From Akkermansiaceae bacterium (lineage in GTDB: Bacteria > Verrucomicrobiota > Verrucomicrobiia > Verrucomicrobiales > Akkermansiaceae): a DNA stretch of 64,000 bases. Where the stretch lies: positions 38,462 to 102,461 of the forward strand of contig SUVL01000004.1 of assembly GCA_015062005.1 (NCBI GenBank). Reading direction: 5' to 3'. Positions within the stretch are counted from its first letter, which is position 1; each line of letters begins with the position of its first letter. Position numbers and translations under genes: made by a program. This document shows, piece by piece, positions 45,529 through 47,984 of this stretch. The notes under the pieces are model-generated. The model was not told the origin of the DNA, searched no databases, and saw nothing but the letters and a program-made list of their open reading frames with translations.

Positions 45529-45900
45529 TTATTCATGTAGCCGGGTGCGGATGGTTTTAGCAGTGGCTGTGACGATGGCGCAGATTTCGCGGGCTTCCTG
45601 GTAGAGCGGTTCCAGACGTGAGGCGGGCTTTATTAGTTCGAAATGCCCGATGTGGTCGAGCCAGTACAGGCATTCGTCCGATTCTTCCTCGCAGATTTTA
45701 ATCTTGTTAAGGAAATCGCGGTCAGACTTAGCGCGGCATGCGGCGCGATAGTTGGCTCCCACAGAGGACGCGCAGCGCAGCAGTTGTTTGCCGTATACCT
45801 CAGCCAGCAAGGTGGTGCGTCCCATGTGCAGCACCAGGTTCCCCACCCGGTAGCTGAACTGCCTGGTGCGTTCCTTCATGGCTTCGCTTTGTTCAGACAT
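45529..45900 (-). CDS. Four-helix bundle protein (23S rRNA IVS-type)
   Basis: The 123-residue product matches the small four-helix-bundle family first found in intervening sequences of 23S rRNA genes: KERTRQFSYRVGNLVLHM, LLRCASSVGANYRAACRAKSDRDFLNKIKICEEESDECLYWLDHI and a final helix IVTATAKTIRTRL. The central SVGANYxAACxAxSxxDFxxKIxxxxEExxExxYWL pattern is diagnostic. The protein forms a pentameric basket; its role is unknown, and here it lies in ordinary intergenic DNA. ATG 45900 is preferred over an upstream in-frame ATG at 45927. Heptad repeats border the gene on both sides. Confidence 0.9.
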   Translation of the reverse strand: MSEQSEAMKERTRQFSYRVGNLVLHMGRTTLLAEVYGKQLLRCASSVGANYRAACRAKSDRDFLNKIKICEEESDECLYWLDHIGHFELIKPASRLEPLYQEAREICAIVTATAKTIRTRLHE

Positions 45901-45958
45901 AGACGCTGCGGAAAGAACGAAGTACAATCGGCGAGCAGAGCGAGCGGTACTTCACCAA

Positions 45959-45993
45959 TTGTACTTTGTCCTTTGTCAATTGTACTTTTTACG
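45959..45993. repeat. Heptanucleotide repeat, five units (TTGTACT type)
   Basis: TTGTACT, TTGTCCT, TTGTCAA, TTGTACT, TTTTACG; the last unit overlaps the stop codon of prfB. Confidence 0.85.
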
Positions 45994-47102
45994 CATTGGC
46001 GTTATGGCGGAGCATGGCTTCCACGTAGCCATCGATGTTGCCGTCCATCACGTCCTGGATGTTGCCGCACTCGAAACCGGTGCGCAGGTCCTTCACCATC
46101 TGGTAGGGCTGGAACACGTAGGAGCGGATCTGGTTGCCCCAGGCAATATCGCCTTTTTCGGAGTACTGGCGGTCGGCTTCGGCGCGCTTGCGGTCTTCCT
46201 CCAGCTGGATGAGGCGGGCCTTGAGCATGCGCATGGCTTCCTCGCGGTTGCGGAGCTGGGAGCGCTGGGTCTGGCAGGCCACGATGATGCCGGTGGGCAG
46301 GTGGGTGAGGCGCACGGCGGTTTCCACCTTGTTCACGTTCTGGCCGCCCTTGCCGCCGGAGCGGTAGGTATCCATCTTCACATCGGCTTCCTTCACCTCG
46401 ATTTCGATGTCGTCGGAGATATCCGGGGTGGCATCCAGCGAGCAGAAGGAGGTGTGGCGCTTGCCGGCGGAGTCGAAGGGGCTCATCCGCACCAGGCGGT
46501 GGATGCCGCGCTCGTTCTTCAGGTAGCCGTAGGCGTACTCACCGTCAATCTTGATGGTCACGGAGCGGATGCCGGCTTCATCGCCATCCGTGCTTTCCAT
46601 GATTTCTGTGTTGAAACCGTGGCGCTCGCAGTAGCGCAGGTACATGCGCAGCAGCATGCTGGCCCAGTCGCAGGCCTCGGTGCCACCGGCGCCGGCGTGA
46701 ATGGTCACATAGCAGCCGGCGTTGTCGTGCGGGCCGTTGAGGAGGGTCAGCAGCTCGAATTCCTCCAGTCGCTTGAACCAGGCATCGTATTCAGCCTTGG
46801 CCTCGCCGGCCATGTCGGGGTCTTCATCGGCCATTTCCACGGCCACAGCCACATCCTCCAGCCCGCTTTCCAGGCTGCGGAATTGCTCCAGGCGGCGCTT
46901 GAGCGGGTTCACCTCGTTCATGAGGGCGCGGGCGGCCTCGGGGTTATCCCAGAAATCCGGGGCGCTCATGCGCTCATCCAGTTCTGCTACTTTAGATTCA
47001 AGGCTTCCGAGGTCAAAGATAGCTCCCGAGCTCGGAAAGACGGGAGCGCATGGCTTCCGTGTCGAGCGCCGAGAGATCGATATTGGTCGTCTGGTTCTCC
47101 AT
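45989..47102 (-). CDS. prfB: Peptide chain release factor 2 with programmed +1 frameshift
   Basis: RF2 ends translation at UGA and UAA. The gene is in two frames: 29 codons from ATG 47102 end at CTT TGA C (stop at 47013-47015), and the rest is read after a +1 shift, through GACCTCGGAAGCCTT, into the frame that ends at 45989. The sequence GGGAGC TAT CTT TGA C has the classic shift site with a GGGAG pairing element three bases before TAT, as in E. coli, so RF2 controls its own synthesis. The downstream part has the catalytic GGQ in [25 protein letters not shown]. The stop-codon recognition loop was not examined in detail. Total about 370 residues. Confidence 0.95.
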
Positions 47103-47154
47103 AACGCGCGGGAGTATACAGGCTTTCCCCCTGGCTGTCAATCTAAATTGCACT

Positions 47155-47366
47155 GGTGCCCGGCACCTGTGCATGCGGCACGAAGTGCCGCTTTCATACC
47201 GCCGCAGGCGGTATTTCATGCGTGGCGCCAGCTTCGCTCAATGAAATACTTGCTATCGCAAGTATGTAAATACCGCTGCGAGCAGCGGTATGAAAGCACT
47301 GCTATCGCAGTGCATGAAATACATGCCTGTGGCATGTATGAAATCCCTCATGCTGGCGCATGAGGG
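47155..47366. repeat. Hairpin array with ATGAAAT / TTTCAT linkers
   Basis: At least seven perfect, mutually unrelated palindromes in 210 bp: GGTGCC-c-GGCACC (47155), GCGGCAC-gaa-GTGCCGC (47175), ATACCGCC-gca-GGCGGTAT (47196), ATACTTGC-tatc-GCAAGTAT (47246), ATACCGCTGC-ga-GCAGCGGTAT (47270), GCACTGC-tatc-GCAGTGC (47296), ATACATGCC-tgt-GGCATGTAT (47319) and CCCTCATGC-tggc-GCATGAGGG (47345). Linkers are TTTCAT in the left part and ATGAAAT in the right part, so the orientation flips near 47230. The array lies between recR and prfB. Confidence 0.9.
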
Positions 47367-47375
47367 GTGGGGAAA

Positions 47376-47984
47376 TCACACACTGCGGCGGCCTTCGAGC
47401 GCGCGCATGAGGGTGATGGCATCGGCATGGCCGAGGCCGGCGCCGGCGGGCATGCCCTGGGCCAGGCGGGTGCAGCGGCAGGGCAGGGTGCCGAGCTGCT
47501 CAGCCAGGTAGAGGGCGGTGGCTTCGCCCTCCACATCGCTGCCCACGGCCAGGATAACCTCGCAGCCGGGGTGGGCTTTCACGCGTTCGATGAGCTTTTC
47601 AACAGCCAGGTCTTCGGGCATGATGCCGTCCAGCGGGGAAATTTTGCCGCCCAGGCAGTGGTAGAGGCCGCGGAAGGTGCCGCAGCGCTCGATGGGGAGC
47701 ACATCCGTGGGCTGCTCCACCACGCAGAGCAGGGAGGAATCGCGCGTGGGGTCATCGCAGGCGGTGCAGCGGCAGCCCTGCCCGGCAAAGAAGCCGCACT
47801 CCGGGCAGCTGCCCACAGTATCGGCGGCGGCGGTGAGGGCGGTGGCGAGCTGGCGGGCTTCGTTGCGCCCCTGCTGCAGGAACCAGAGGGCGAGCCGCTC
47901 CGCCCCGCGTGTGCCCACGCCGGGCATGCGCTTGAGCGCGGCTATCATCTCCAGCACGGCCTTGGGGTAATCCTGGGCTTTCAT
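47376..47984 (-). CDS. recR: Recombination mediator protein
   Basis: RecR, with RecO and RecF, loads RecA on SSB-coated gaps. The 202-residue protein has the N-terminal helix-hairpin-helix (MIAALKRMPGVGTRGAERLALWFL), a four-cysteine zinc finger (CPEC at 60-63, then CRCTAC at 71-76), a Toprim domain (LLCVVEQPTDVLPIE, VILAVGSDVEGEATALYLA) and the C-terminal Walker-B-like region with ITRLAxGxPxGxxLxYxDxxTL in the form CTRLAQGMPAGAGLGHADAITLMRAL. Here a His (GLGHAD) replaces the usual Tyr. It overlaps the upstream membrane-protein gene by 4 nt. ybaB and dnaX, common partners, are encoded 10 kb away. Confidence 0.94.
   Translation of the reverse strand: MKAQDYPKAVLEMIAALKRMPGVGTRGAERLALWFLQQGRNEARQLATALTAAADTVGSCPECGFFAGQGCRCTACDDPTRDSSLLCVVEQPTDVLPIERCGTFRGLYHCLGGKISPLDGIMPEDLAVEKLIERVKAHPGCEVILAVGSDVEGEATALYLAEQLGTLPCRCTRLAQGMPAGAGLGHADAITLMRALEGRRSV

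Follow-up and report, generated by a model that had tools for sequence, protein, structure and literature searches.

A hairpin array in an Akkermansiaceae genome as an internally deleted copy of a dispersed two-armed Gut-1-class element, probably acting as folded DNA

Introduction

REPs are palindromes that combine a conserved stem with a tetranucleotide tag, and Y1 (HUH) enzymes use single-stranded DNA hairpins with a short conserved foot. The SDRs of Nostoc, reportedly described by Elhai et al. in 2008, are said to be tiny hairpins that are kept by compensatory change and lie beside or in tandem heptamers. Gut-1 (Rfam RF01706) appears, in the part of the 2010 description by Weinberg et al. 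that is devoted to it, as an orphan RNA found only in the human gut and known from environmental sequences alone, and it is rated there as a certain RNA (PMC2864571). The protein family PF05635 (IVP) is noted, in a passage of PMC10053308, to resemble the Avd protein of diversity-generating retroelements, and a passage of PMC4990558 records that the 23S rRNA intervening sequence (IVS) of Coxiella, which encodes a member of the S23p family, has tandem heptamers before its ORF. IVP genes adjoining cas genes are also on record, in the section of PMC3936711 that touches on them.

Here we analyse an array of small hairpins in the genome of an Akkermansiaceae bacterium. In the reading that we favour, with a probability of roughly 60%, the array belongs to a dispersed, two-armed element of the Gut-1 class, internally deleted at this locus, whose arms likely act as a fishbone of folded DNA, with recognition by a structure-specific protein predicted when the element moves.

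Results and Discussion

The window, by which we mean the whole 64-kb stretch of DNA that was analysed, carries on its minus strand an ORF at 47376-47984, which we take to be recR, and downstream of it an ORF at 45989-47104 (main ORF 45989-46969, start region near 47104), which is presumably prfB. The array occupies the gap between the two genes. The recR stop codon lies 9 nt from the first hairpin on that side, and a promoter-like TTGACA-N17-TATACT of prfB (47113-47141, minus strand) adjoins the array at the other. An imperfect hairpin with 12-nt arms of 92% complementarity (47149-47173), the outermost of the left arm, precedes seven perfect hairpins that follow one another from 47175 to 47366, with stems of 7-9 bp and loops of 3-4 nt. 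In the left arm GCGGCAC(gaa)GTGCCGC (47175-47191), a hairpin position also present in other copies, is followed by the linker TTTCAT (47192-47197, plus strand) and by ATACCGCC(gca)GGCGGTAT (47196-47214), which recurs through the genome; the linker ATTTCAT (47213-47219, plus strand) then leads into a degenerate unit at 47220-47240. The right arm, with its linkers read on the plus strand, consists of ATGAAAT (47241-47247), the hairpin ATACTTGC(tatc)GCAAGTAT (47246-47265), the linker ATGTAAAT (47264-47271), the hairpin ATACCGCTG(cgag)CAGCGGTAT (47270-47291), ATGAAA (47290-47295), the hairpin GCACTGC(tatc)GCAGTGC (47296-47313), ATGAAAT (47314-47320), the hairpin ATACATGCC(tgt)GGCATGTAT (47319-47339), which also recurs through the genome, ATGAAAT (47338-47344) and the terminal hairpin CCCTCATGC(tggc)GCATGAGGG (47345-47366). 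Both left-arm loops of the perfect hairpins are of DNA mini-hairpin form on the plus strand, C(GAA)G and C(GCA)G, and three of the five right-arm loops (TATC twice, TGGC) read C(GATA)G, C(GATA)G and C(GCCA)G on the minus strand; the other two, TGT and CGAG, fall outside the GNA/GNNA pattern.

The preliminary description had reported a series of perfect palindromes joined by constant linkers. The series was borne out, as were the TTTCAT-type and ATGAAA-type joints that it listed, with one further joint, ATGTAAAT, that differs from them; its reverse complement, ATTTACAT, is a left-arm linker of full copies. The interpretation given in that description proved correct in part. It had overlooked the inverted two-armed plan, the likeness to Gut-1, the IVP gene of some copies, the occurrence of the plan in Clostridia and the DNA-type loops, all of which are described below, and also the degenerate unit. 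Comparison of the window with the left and right segments of the copy L076, and with full copies, places the start of left-arm unit 3 (GCGTGGCGCCAGC) and a piece of the inner right arm (TTCGCTCA) side by side within this unit. Judging from the sequence, 47220-47240 is the joint of an internal deletion in which the core and the remainder of the left arm were lost, left unit 3 being fused here to the inner right arm with GCT common to both at 47231-47233.

Hairpins of the array type number 47 in the whole window. When the window was cut into 1204 overlapping tiles of 212 bp, 1068 held no hairpin and four held from 4 to 7, and outside the array 212 bp never held more than 3. Mononucleotide shuffles of 47155-47366 (n=1000) gave at most one hairpin, with a mean of 0.05, so the claim that the pattern is not common in shuffled sequence stands. 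Folding z-scores were -9.9 with RNA parameters on the minus strand and -11.2 with DNA parameters on the plus strand, and none of the 200 dinucleotide shuffles used in each case equalled the array. A CRISPR array was rejected on anatomy, there being no identical repeats with unique spacers; by inspection just the 6-8 nt linkers recur, in agreement with the earlier view. Inspection of the sequence showed no cassettes between the units, and an integron is unlikely. The 64-kb window contains no rRNA, and the array does not lie in an rRNA gene. No T-run follows the hairpins in the window.

A simple local oddity was rejected because copies are dispersed through the genome. The pattern TTTCAT-N12..36-ATTTCAT was found at 39 places in the 2.43-Mb genome and at none in a reversed control; many of these places are the same two hairpins face to face, 120-360 bp apart, and a few are unrelated (e.g. 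G000:C36). A BLAST search of the genome with the array gave 66 matches. The whole two-armed plan is fullest in the copies L063, L067, L074 and L076, and L073 is also two-armed. With [h] for a hairpin, full copies have a left arm of the form TTTCAT[h]ATTTCAT[h]TTTCAT[h]ATTTACAT[h]AATTCAT-TGAGCGAAGCGACTAG-TTACCGCTGC. A core of about 120 bp separates it from the right arm, in which the left-arm linkers, including TTTCAT, ATTTCAT and ATTTACAT, return in reverse order and complement, one of them with a single change, between stems that differ from those of the left arm. The outer ends differ between copies. The window array is an internally deleted, non-coding copy of this dispersed, multi-copy, two-armed element. 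Its stems had been described as unrelated, which is correct between positions, arms and species and incorrect between copies, the same stems recurring at more than 12 dispersed places of the same genome.

Some copies sit within another repeat that has 15-bp inverted ends and, by eye, duplications of about 9 bp, and this outer ACACGTGTCCCAAAG repeat may have carried some copies. As general ends of the element itself ACACGTGTCCCAAAG was rejected, since several Gut-1 copies are without it and many such repeats are without Gut-1. A repeat of 210 bp, bounded by inverted ends resembling ACACGTGTCCCAAAG and, by eye, by target duplications of about 9 bp, occurs at the loci L114-L138 of the same genome; some of its copies hold Gut-1 arms and others different inserts. 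A long tandem TTTTTGCATC run was also seen near another array, at about 5920-6045 of L061.

Gain or loss of copies could be followed at matching sites in relatives. Ten relatives were compared for the copy C27, which directly follows a terminator: five align by both flanks and lack the copy, and the other five align by one flank. The copy C34 is missing in 1 of 10 relatives, the one whose two flanks align side by side. The empty-looking C27 site of G005 retains a short stretch resembling the element end and may be a deletion scar. Of the features of a miniature inverted-repeat transposon, the element has inverted arms; by eye, neither the C27 nor the C34 site showed a target-site duplication, and the duplications that were seen belong to the outer ACACGTGTCCCAAAG repeat. 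Neither a transposase nor a target-site duplication could be tied to the element. At the window's own site, recR matched in 71 of the 76 genomes of the genus, and the 30 best loci were compared; 8 show the recR-prfB gap or an array behind recR, and the remaining 22 have another downstream gene or end too early. Two of the 8 lack an array; their gaps measure 92 and 82 bp, and one of them holds a single hairpin. The arrays of the other six, the source genome among them, are of several kinds: besides the window copy, G010 has a full two-armed copy, G005 an array fused to one with TATCG linkers, and G027 and G021 arrays of another kind, which is tandemly repeated in G018 (L268). In G018 the sequence read behind recR shows this Gut-1-type array three times over, and prfB was not found in it. 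Where array and prfB occur together, in five genomes, the arrays end at a common (A)TTTAGATTGACA, and the promoter-like TTGACA-N17-TATACT adjoins the array here and in the four relatives concerned.

It could be envisaged that the recR-prfB array is kept for the host, as an insulator, a terminator or an mRNA stabiliser, and its position between the recR stop codon and the prfB promoter in five of five such genomes would suit this. However, two relatives have no array at recR, the arrays found there are of several kinds, other copies occupy many unrelated places and no T-run follows the window hairpins, and a host function is thus highly improbable. As a copy of the dispersed element, the array fills the space from stop codon to promoter and may insulate transcription as a side effect.

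Against Rfam, the window array matched RF01706 Gut-1 at 47239-47325 (plus strand) with 38.1 bits, which is below the gathering cut-off of 50, and the C42 copy of the same genome matched with 50.7 bits, above it. The Gut-1 plan of three hairpins with TGAAA linkers is present in the array, one of the two inner linkers being TGTAAA. The genus survey covered 76 genomes, mostly incomplete assemblies, of the source genome's genus (likely Akkermansia); 27 have Gut-1 at E up to 0.001 and 17 above the cut-off, and among 14 control genomes one (E. coli) matches, below the cut-off. These matches, including relatives above the cut-off, are in favour of Gut-1 being a true structured non-coding RNA, or the 5' leader of an IVP mRNA, with the window array as a divergent gene copy, and so is the rating as a certain RNA in the Gut-1 section of Weinberg et al. 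(PMC2864571).

The preliminary description held that just the linker and the architecture are kept, which would imply compensatory change or a process that generates palindromes. Comparison with relatives upheld the conservation of linker and architecture, with stems that change in pairs. Four arm slots were set by their flanking linkers alone, which gave 196 distinct units, and the outer six pairs of each were scored; 1090 of the 1176 pairs are Watson-Crick. In slot S1 (125 units) the proportion was 92.0%, against a mean of 55.8% and a maximum of 60.4% in 500 shuffles that ignore relatedness, and all four pair types occur at several positions. Slots S2, S3 and S4 (34, 18 and 19 units) gave 89.7%, 100% and 95.6% against shuffle maxima of 69.6, 92.6 and 83.3%, relatedness again being ignored. 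The stems differ by paired changes between arms, sub-families and species, and the pairing is kept.

Among the 1176 pairs, G-T (16) is nearly as scarce as A-C (11). In a second set of 1450 pairs from 271 units of 68 clostridial and viral-contig loci, from which Akkermansia loci and loci with fewer than 6 linkers were left out, the counts were 8 and 5, whereas 66 tRNAs from the loci analysed gave 118 G-T and 0 A-C in 1429 pairs. Since RNA would accept G-U far oftener than A-C, the few G-T pairs speak for DNA. Loops were classed in the sense in which the linker reads TTTCAY, and the 147 clean loops from 404 units comprised 41 C(GNA)G, 25 C(GNYA)G, 10 C(GNRA)G, 2 C(TNC)G, no UNCG and 69 others, so that C(GNA)G and C(GNNA)G account for 76 of the 147 on the strand with TTTCAY. 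On G-C stems GNA and GNNA loops form extraordinarily stable, nuclease-resistant DNA mini-hairpins, according to the passage of PMC4686876 that deals with them. The excess of GNYA over GNRA (25 v 10 of 147), and the absence of UNCG from both loop counts, go against the RNA reading. In Clostridia, T(T/G)C outnumbers G(A/C)A by 42 to 3 in arm 1, and G(A/C)A prevails in arm 2 with 31 against 4; loop class and linker switch strand together between the arms, which also counts against RNA, since no single transcript would then have the favoured loops in both arms. In favour of RNA, GNRA or its complement makes up 40 of the 271 loops from clostridial and viral-contig loci, with 21 GNRA and 3 complements in arm 2 and 16 complements in arm 1. 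With those 21 GNRA and at least 14 GNYA, GNRA is not rarer than GNYA in clostridial arm 2, contrary to the DNA reading. A strand-specific RNA with UNCG loops in one arm and GNRA loops in the other had also been considered and was dropped, because UNCG loops number 0 and the loop classes are mirrored between the arms. By their scarce G-T pairs and DNA-type loops, the hairpins likely are DNA rather than RNA. The covariation seen here would pass the usual tests for structured RNA, yet it looks like selection on DNA shape; counts of G-T against A-C, together with loop classes, could be applied to other orphan RNA candidates.

Perfect stems could also be a by-product of replication, if template switching at quasi-palindromes perfects them and leaves inert repeats that no protein recognises. 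Mismatched intermediates are indeed few in the 68 clostridial and viral-contig loci (59 of 1450 pairs are non-Watson-Crick, 39 of them A-G or G-A), which fits template switching because one event would correct both sides, and internal deletions and a tandem triplication do occur. However, the family-specific linkers in both arms, the strand-specific loops and the association with IVP are left unexplained, and we hold this explanation to be very unlikely.

This association was seen in the core of the copy G000:C42, which holds a gene for a 118-residue four-helix-bundle protein (PF05635 23S_rRNA_IVP / TIGR02436). The family profile matches the solved structures 2rld and 2gsc, and the closest named records of the gene, among the matches listed, are Akkermansia MAGs from goat and sheep rectum with 97%, 92% and 86% identity. 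An IVP gene lies between the arms in one copy in each of three genomes (G000:C42, G038:C51 and G044:C71), which may be one inherited insertion, since all three adjoin the same neighbouring gene. The window copy has neither core nor IVP gene, and most of the copies read carry no IVP gene. At least nine IVP genes in eight genomes, among the matches listed, have a Gut-1 match within 250 bp (G000:C42, G002:C48, G010:C168, G018:C63, G018:C130, G023:C11, G030:C66, G033:C41 and G058:C168). PF05635 is present in 27 of 27 genomes with Gut-1 against 28 of 49 without it (p 2e-5, relatedness ignored). The open-access literature yielded no paper tying Gut-1 to IVP genes, with supplementary files, Rfam pages, subscription papers and preprints lying outside that search.

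The source genome has nine IVP genes, of which six were read, L257 and L260 lying outside the inspection. Beside four of the six (L255, L256, L259 and L261) are short tandem repeats rather than hairpins; these heptamer-like repeats are inverted between the flanks, e.g. GATTGACAATTGAC... against GTCAATTGTCAATAGTC, and look as if they were arms without hairpins. L261 lies in the window itself, as a second IVP/four-helix-bundle gene (45529-45927, minus strand; PF05635, 46 bits) just downstream of prfB, and is flanked by short inverted runs of an ACAATT-type repeat, not by hairpins. L254 (G000:C36) has an IVP gene flanked by two clean arms that belong to another family, whose linkers are TATCG/CGATA.

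The arrays might instead be repeats of the REP/BIME type, whose spread would be due to a REP-associated Y1 (HUH) transposase with single-stranded hairpins as its substrate, and hairpins with a short conserved foot would suit Y1 enzymes. The source genome contains five matches to Y1, two arrays flank a Y1 transposase gene at L061:2250-2735, and Y1 occurs in 23 of the 27 Gut-1 genomes against 27 of the other 49 (p 0.01). However, the L061 gene has repeats of its own (GAGCCCGCGAAGCGGGTGAAAGA) just outside it, and 4 of the 27 Gut-1 genomes have no Y1 match while IVP is found in all 27. The latter weakens a RAYT as the mover, although a missing Y1 is weak evidence because the assemblies are incomplete, and we regard a spread of this kind as improbable. 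The L061 gene, on the minus strand, is an IS200-like Y1 transposase gene with inverted repeats, placed between Gut-1-type arrays.

The same plan was found outside the genus. When species genomes were scanned with an alignment of 29 IVP proteins, at least 555 relatives were confirmed, the best 80 of which were kept; these are mostly Clostridia MAGs, largely from the gut, with six Akkermansia, and 2 viral contigs were added. The 500-bp upstream flanks of 80 of the 82 loci, those with at least 300 bp upstream, held 5.24 perfect hairpins per 500 bp against 0.61 in shuffles. A repeated linker, defined as some 7-mer occurring at least 4 times with both strands counted, was present in 73 of these 80 flanks against 2 of 69 flanks 2 kb upstream (Fisher p 2e-31); downstream of the IVP genes the figures were 10 of 77 and, 2 kb away, 6 of 64. 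The linkers vary by locus (ATTTCAC, ATGAAAT, TATTTCA, ATATCGA, ACTTCAC, AGCTAAA and others). Among the 75 linker-bearing loci, both orientations occur in 72; the orientation switches just once in 65, and the two counts differ by at most 1 in 54. DNA folds were computed for the 53 loci that have at least 6 linkers and switch once, and in these 70% of the linker bases (1850 of 2660) pair with linkers of the opposite arm. Gut-1 was found above the cut-off beside IVP genes at 9 of 20 loci scanned against Rfam. One of these, L251, is a contig classed as viral (IMGVR_UViG_3300031555_007195), which has an IVP gene and Gut-1 arrays above the cut-off. At L177, L178, L184, L192, L205 and L241, clostridial arrays start directly after a hairpin resembling an intrinsic terminator, several of them behind a tRNA gene.

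In Clostridia both arms lie upstream of the IVP gene, as an RNA leader might, in the space between the upstream gene, often its terminator or a tRNA, and the IVP start. Occupation of this mRNA-leader position makes the RNA reading all the more the main rival; set against the pair types, the loop classes and their joint change of strand, we nevertheless consider it unlikely.

For the folded-DNA element that we favour, a mechanism can be proposed. The hairpins keep their shape and not their letters, likely because the working form is folded DNA and not RNA; the acting form would be single-stranded or extruded DNA. Linkers would pair across the arms as a spine and the hairpins would stand out as ribs, a fishbone picture that draws on the share of linker bases paired with the opposite arm in the computed folds. 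A predicted structure-specific protein would recognise this fishbone of mini-hairpins as the element moves, and if it reads the shape, only shape and linker would be kept and the stems would drift in pairs. The IVP protein, with its resemblance to Avd, may bind the arms as the likely partner. The window copy, having lost its core, would depend on help from elsewhere. More tentatively, we suggest that Gut-1 at large could represent the structured DNA ends of a new class of mobile elements in gut Verrucomicrobia and Clostridia, whose single-stranded GNA/GNNA fishbone an Avd/IVP-type four-helix-bundle protein might read.

Relation to known systems

Like the Nostoc SDRs, as these are reportedly built, the arrays have tiny, compensatorily kept hairpins adjoining heptamers, but the SDRs are said to be single short units, whereas here ordered two-arm arrays are tied to a protein gene. 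With REPs and their RAYTs they share palindromes with a constant foot that would be read as single-stranded hairpins; in contrast to the conserved stem of REPs, the stems vary between units, the linker is 6-8 nt long and no RAYT is tied to the arms. The likeness to diversity-generating retroelements lies in the resemblance of PF05635 to Avd noted in a passage of PMC10053308; unlike in those systems, the arms were not noticed to have a reverse transcriptase or a template repeat next to them.

With the Gut-1 RNA (RF01706) the arrays share hairpins with (G/A)TGAAA linkers, and the covariance model covers part of one arm. The 2010 description has Gut-1 as a free-standing RNA with no known host, whereas in the present genomes it forms one arm of a two-armed element, with Akkermansia and Clostridia as hosts, a gene in some copies and loops of the DNA type. 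The orphan family thus gains hosts, a protein partner and a full anatomy over the 2010 description, and its status as RNA is put in question.

The 23S rRNA IVS with S23/IVP have PF05635 inside inverted sequences, as here, and the Coxiella IVS has heptamers, on the evidence of the passage in PMC4990558. The present element differs from them in lying outside rRNA, in having hairpin arrays as arms and many dispersed copies, and in that most of the copies read are without a gene. Hairpin arrays, inverted heptamer-like arms and the intervening sequences of 23S rRNA are connected in this way by a single protein family of unknown function.
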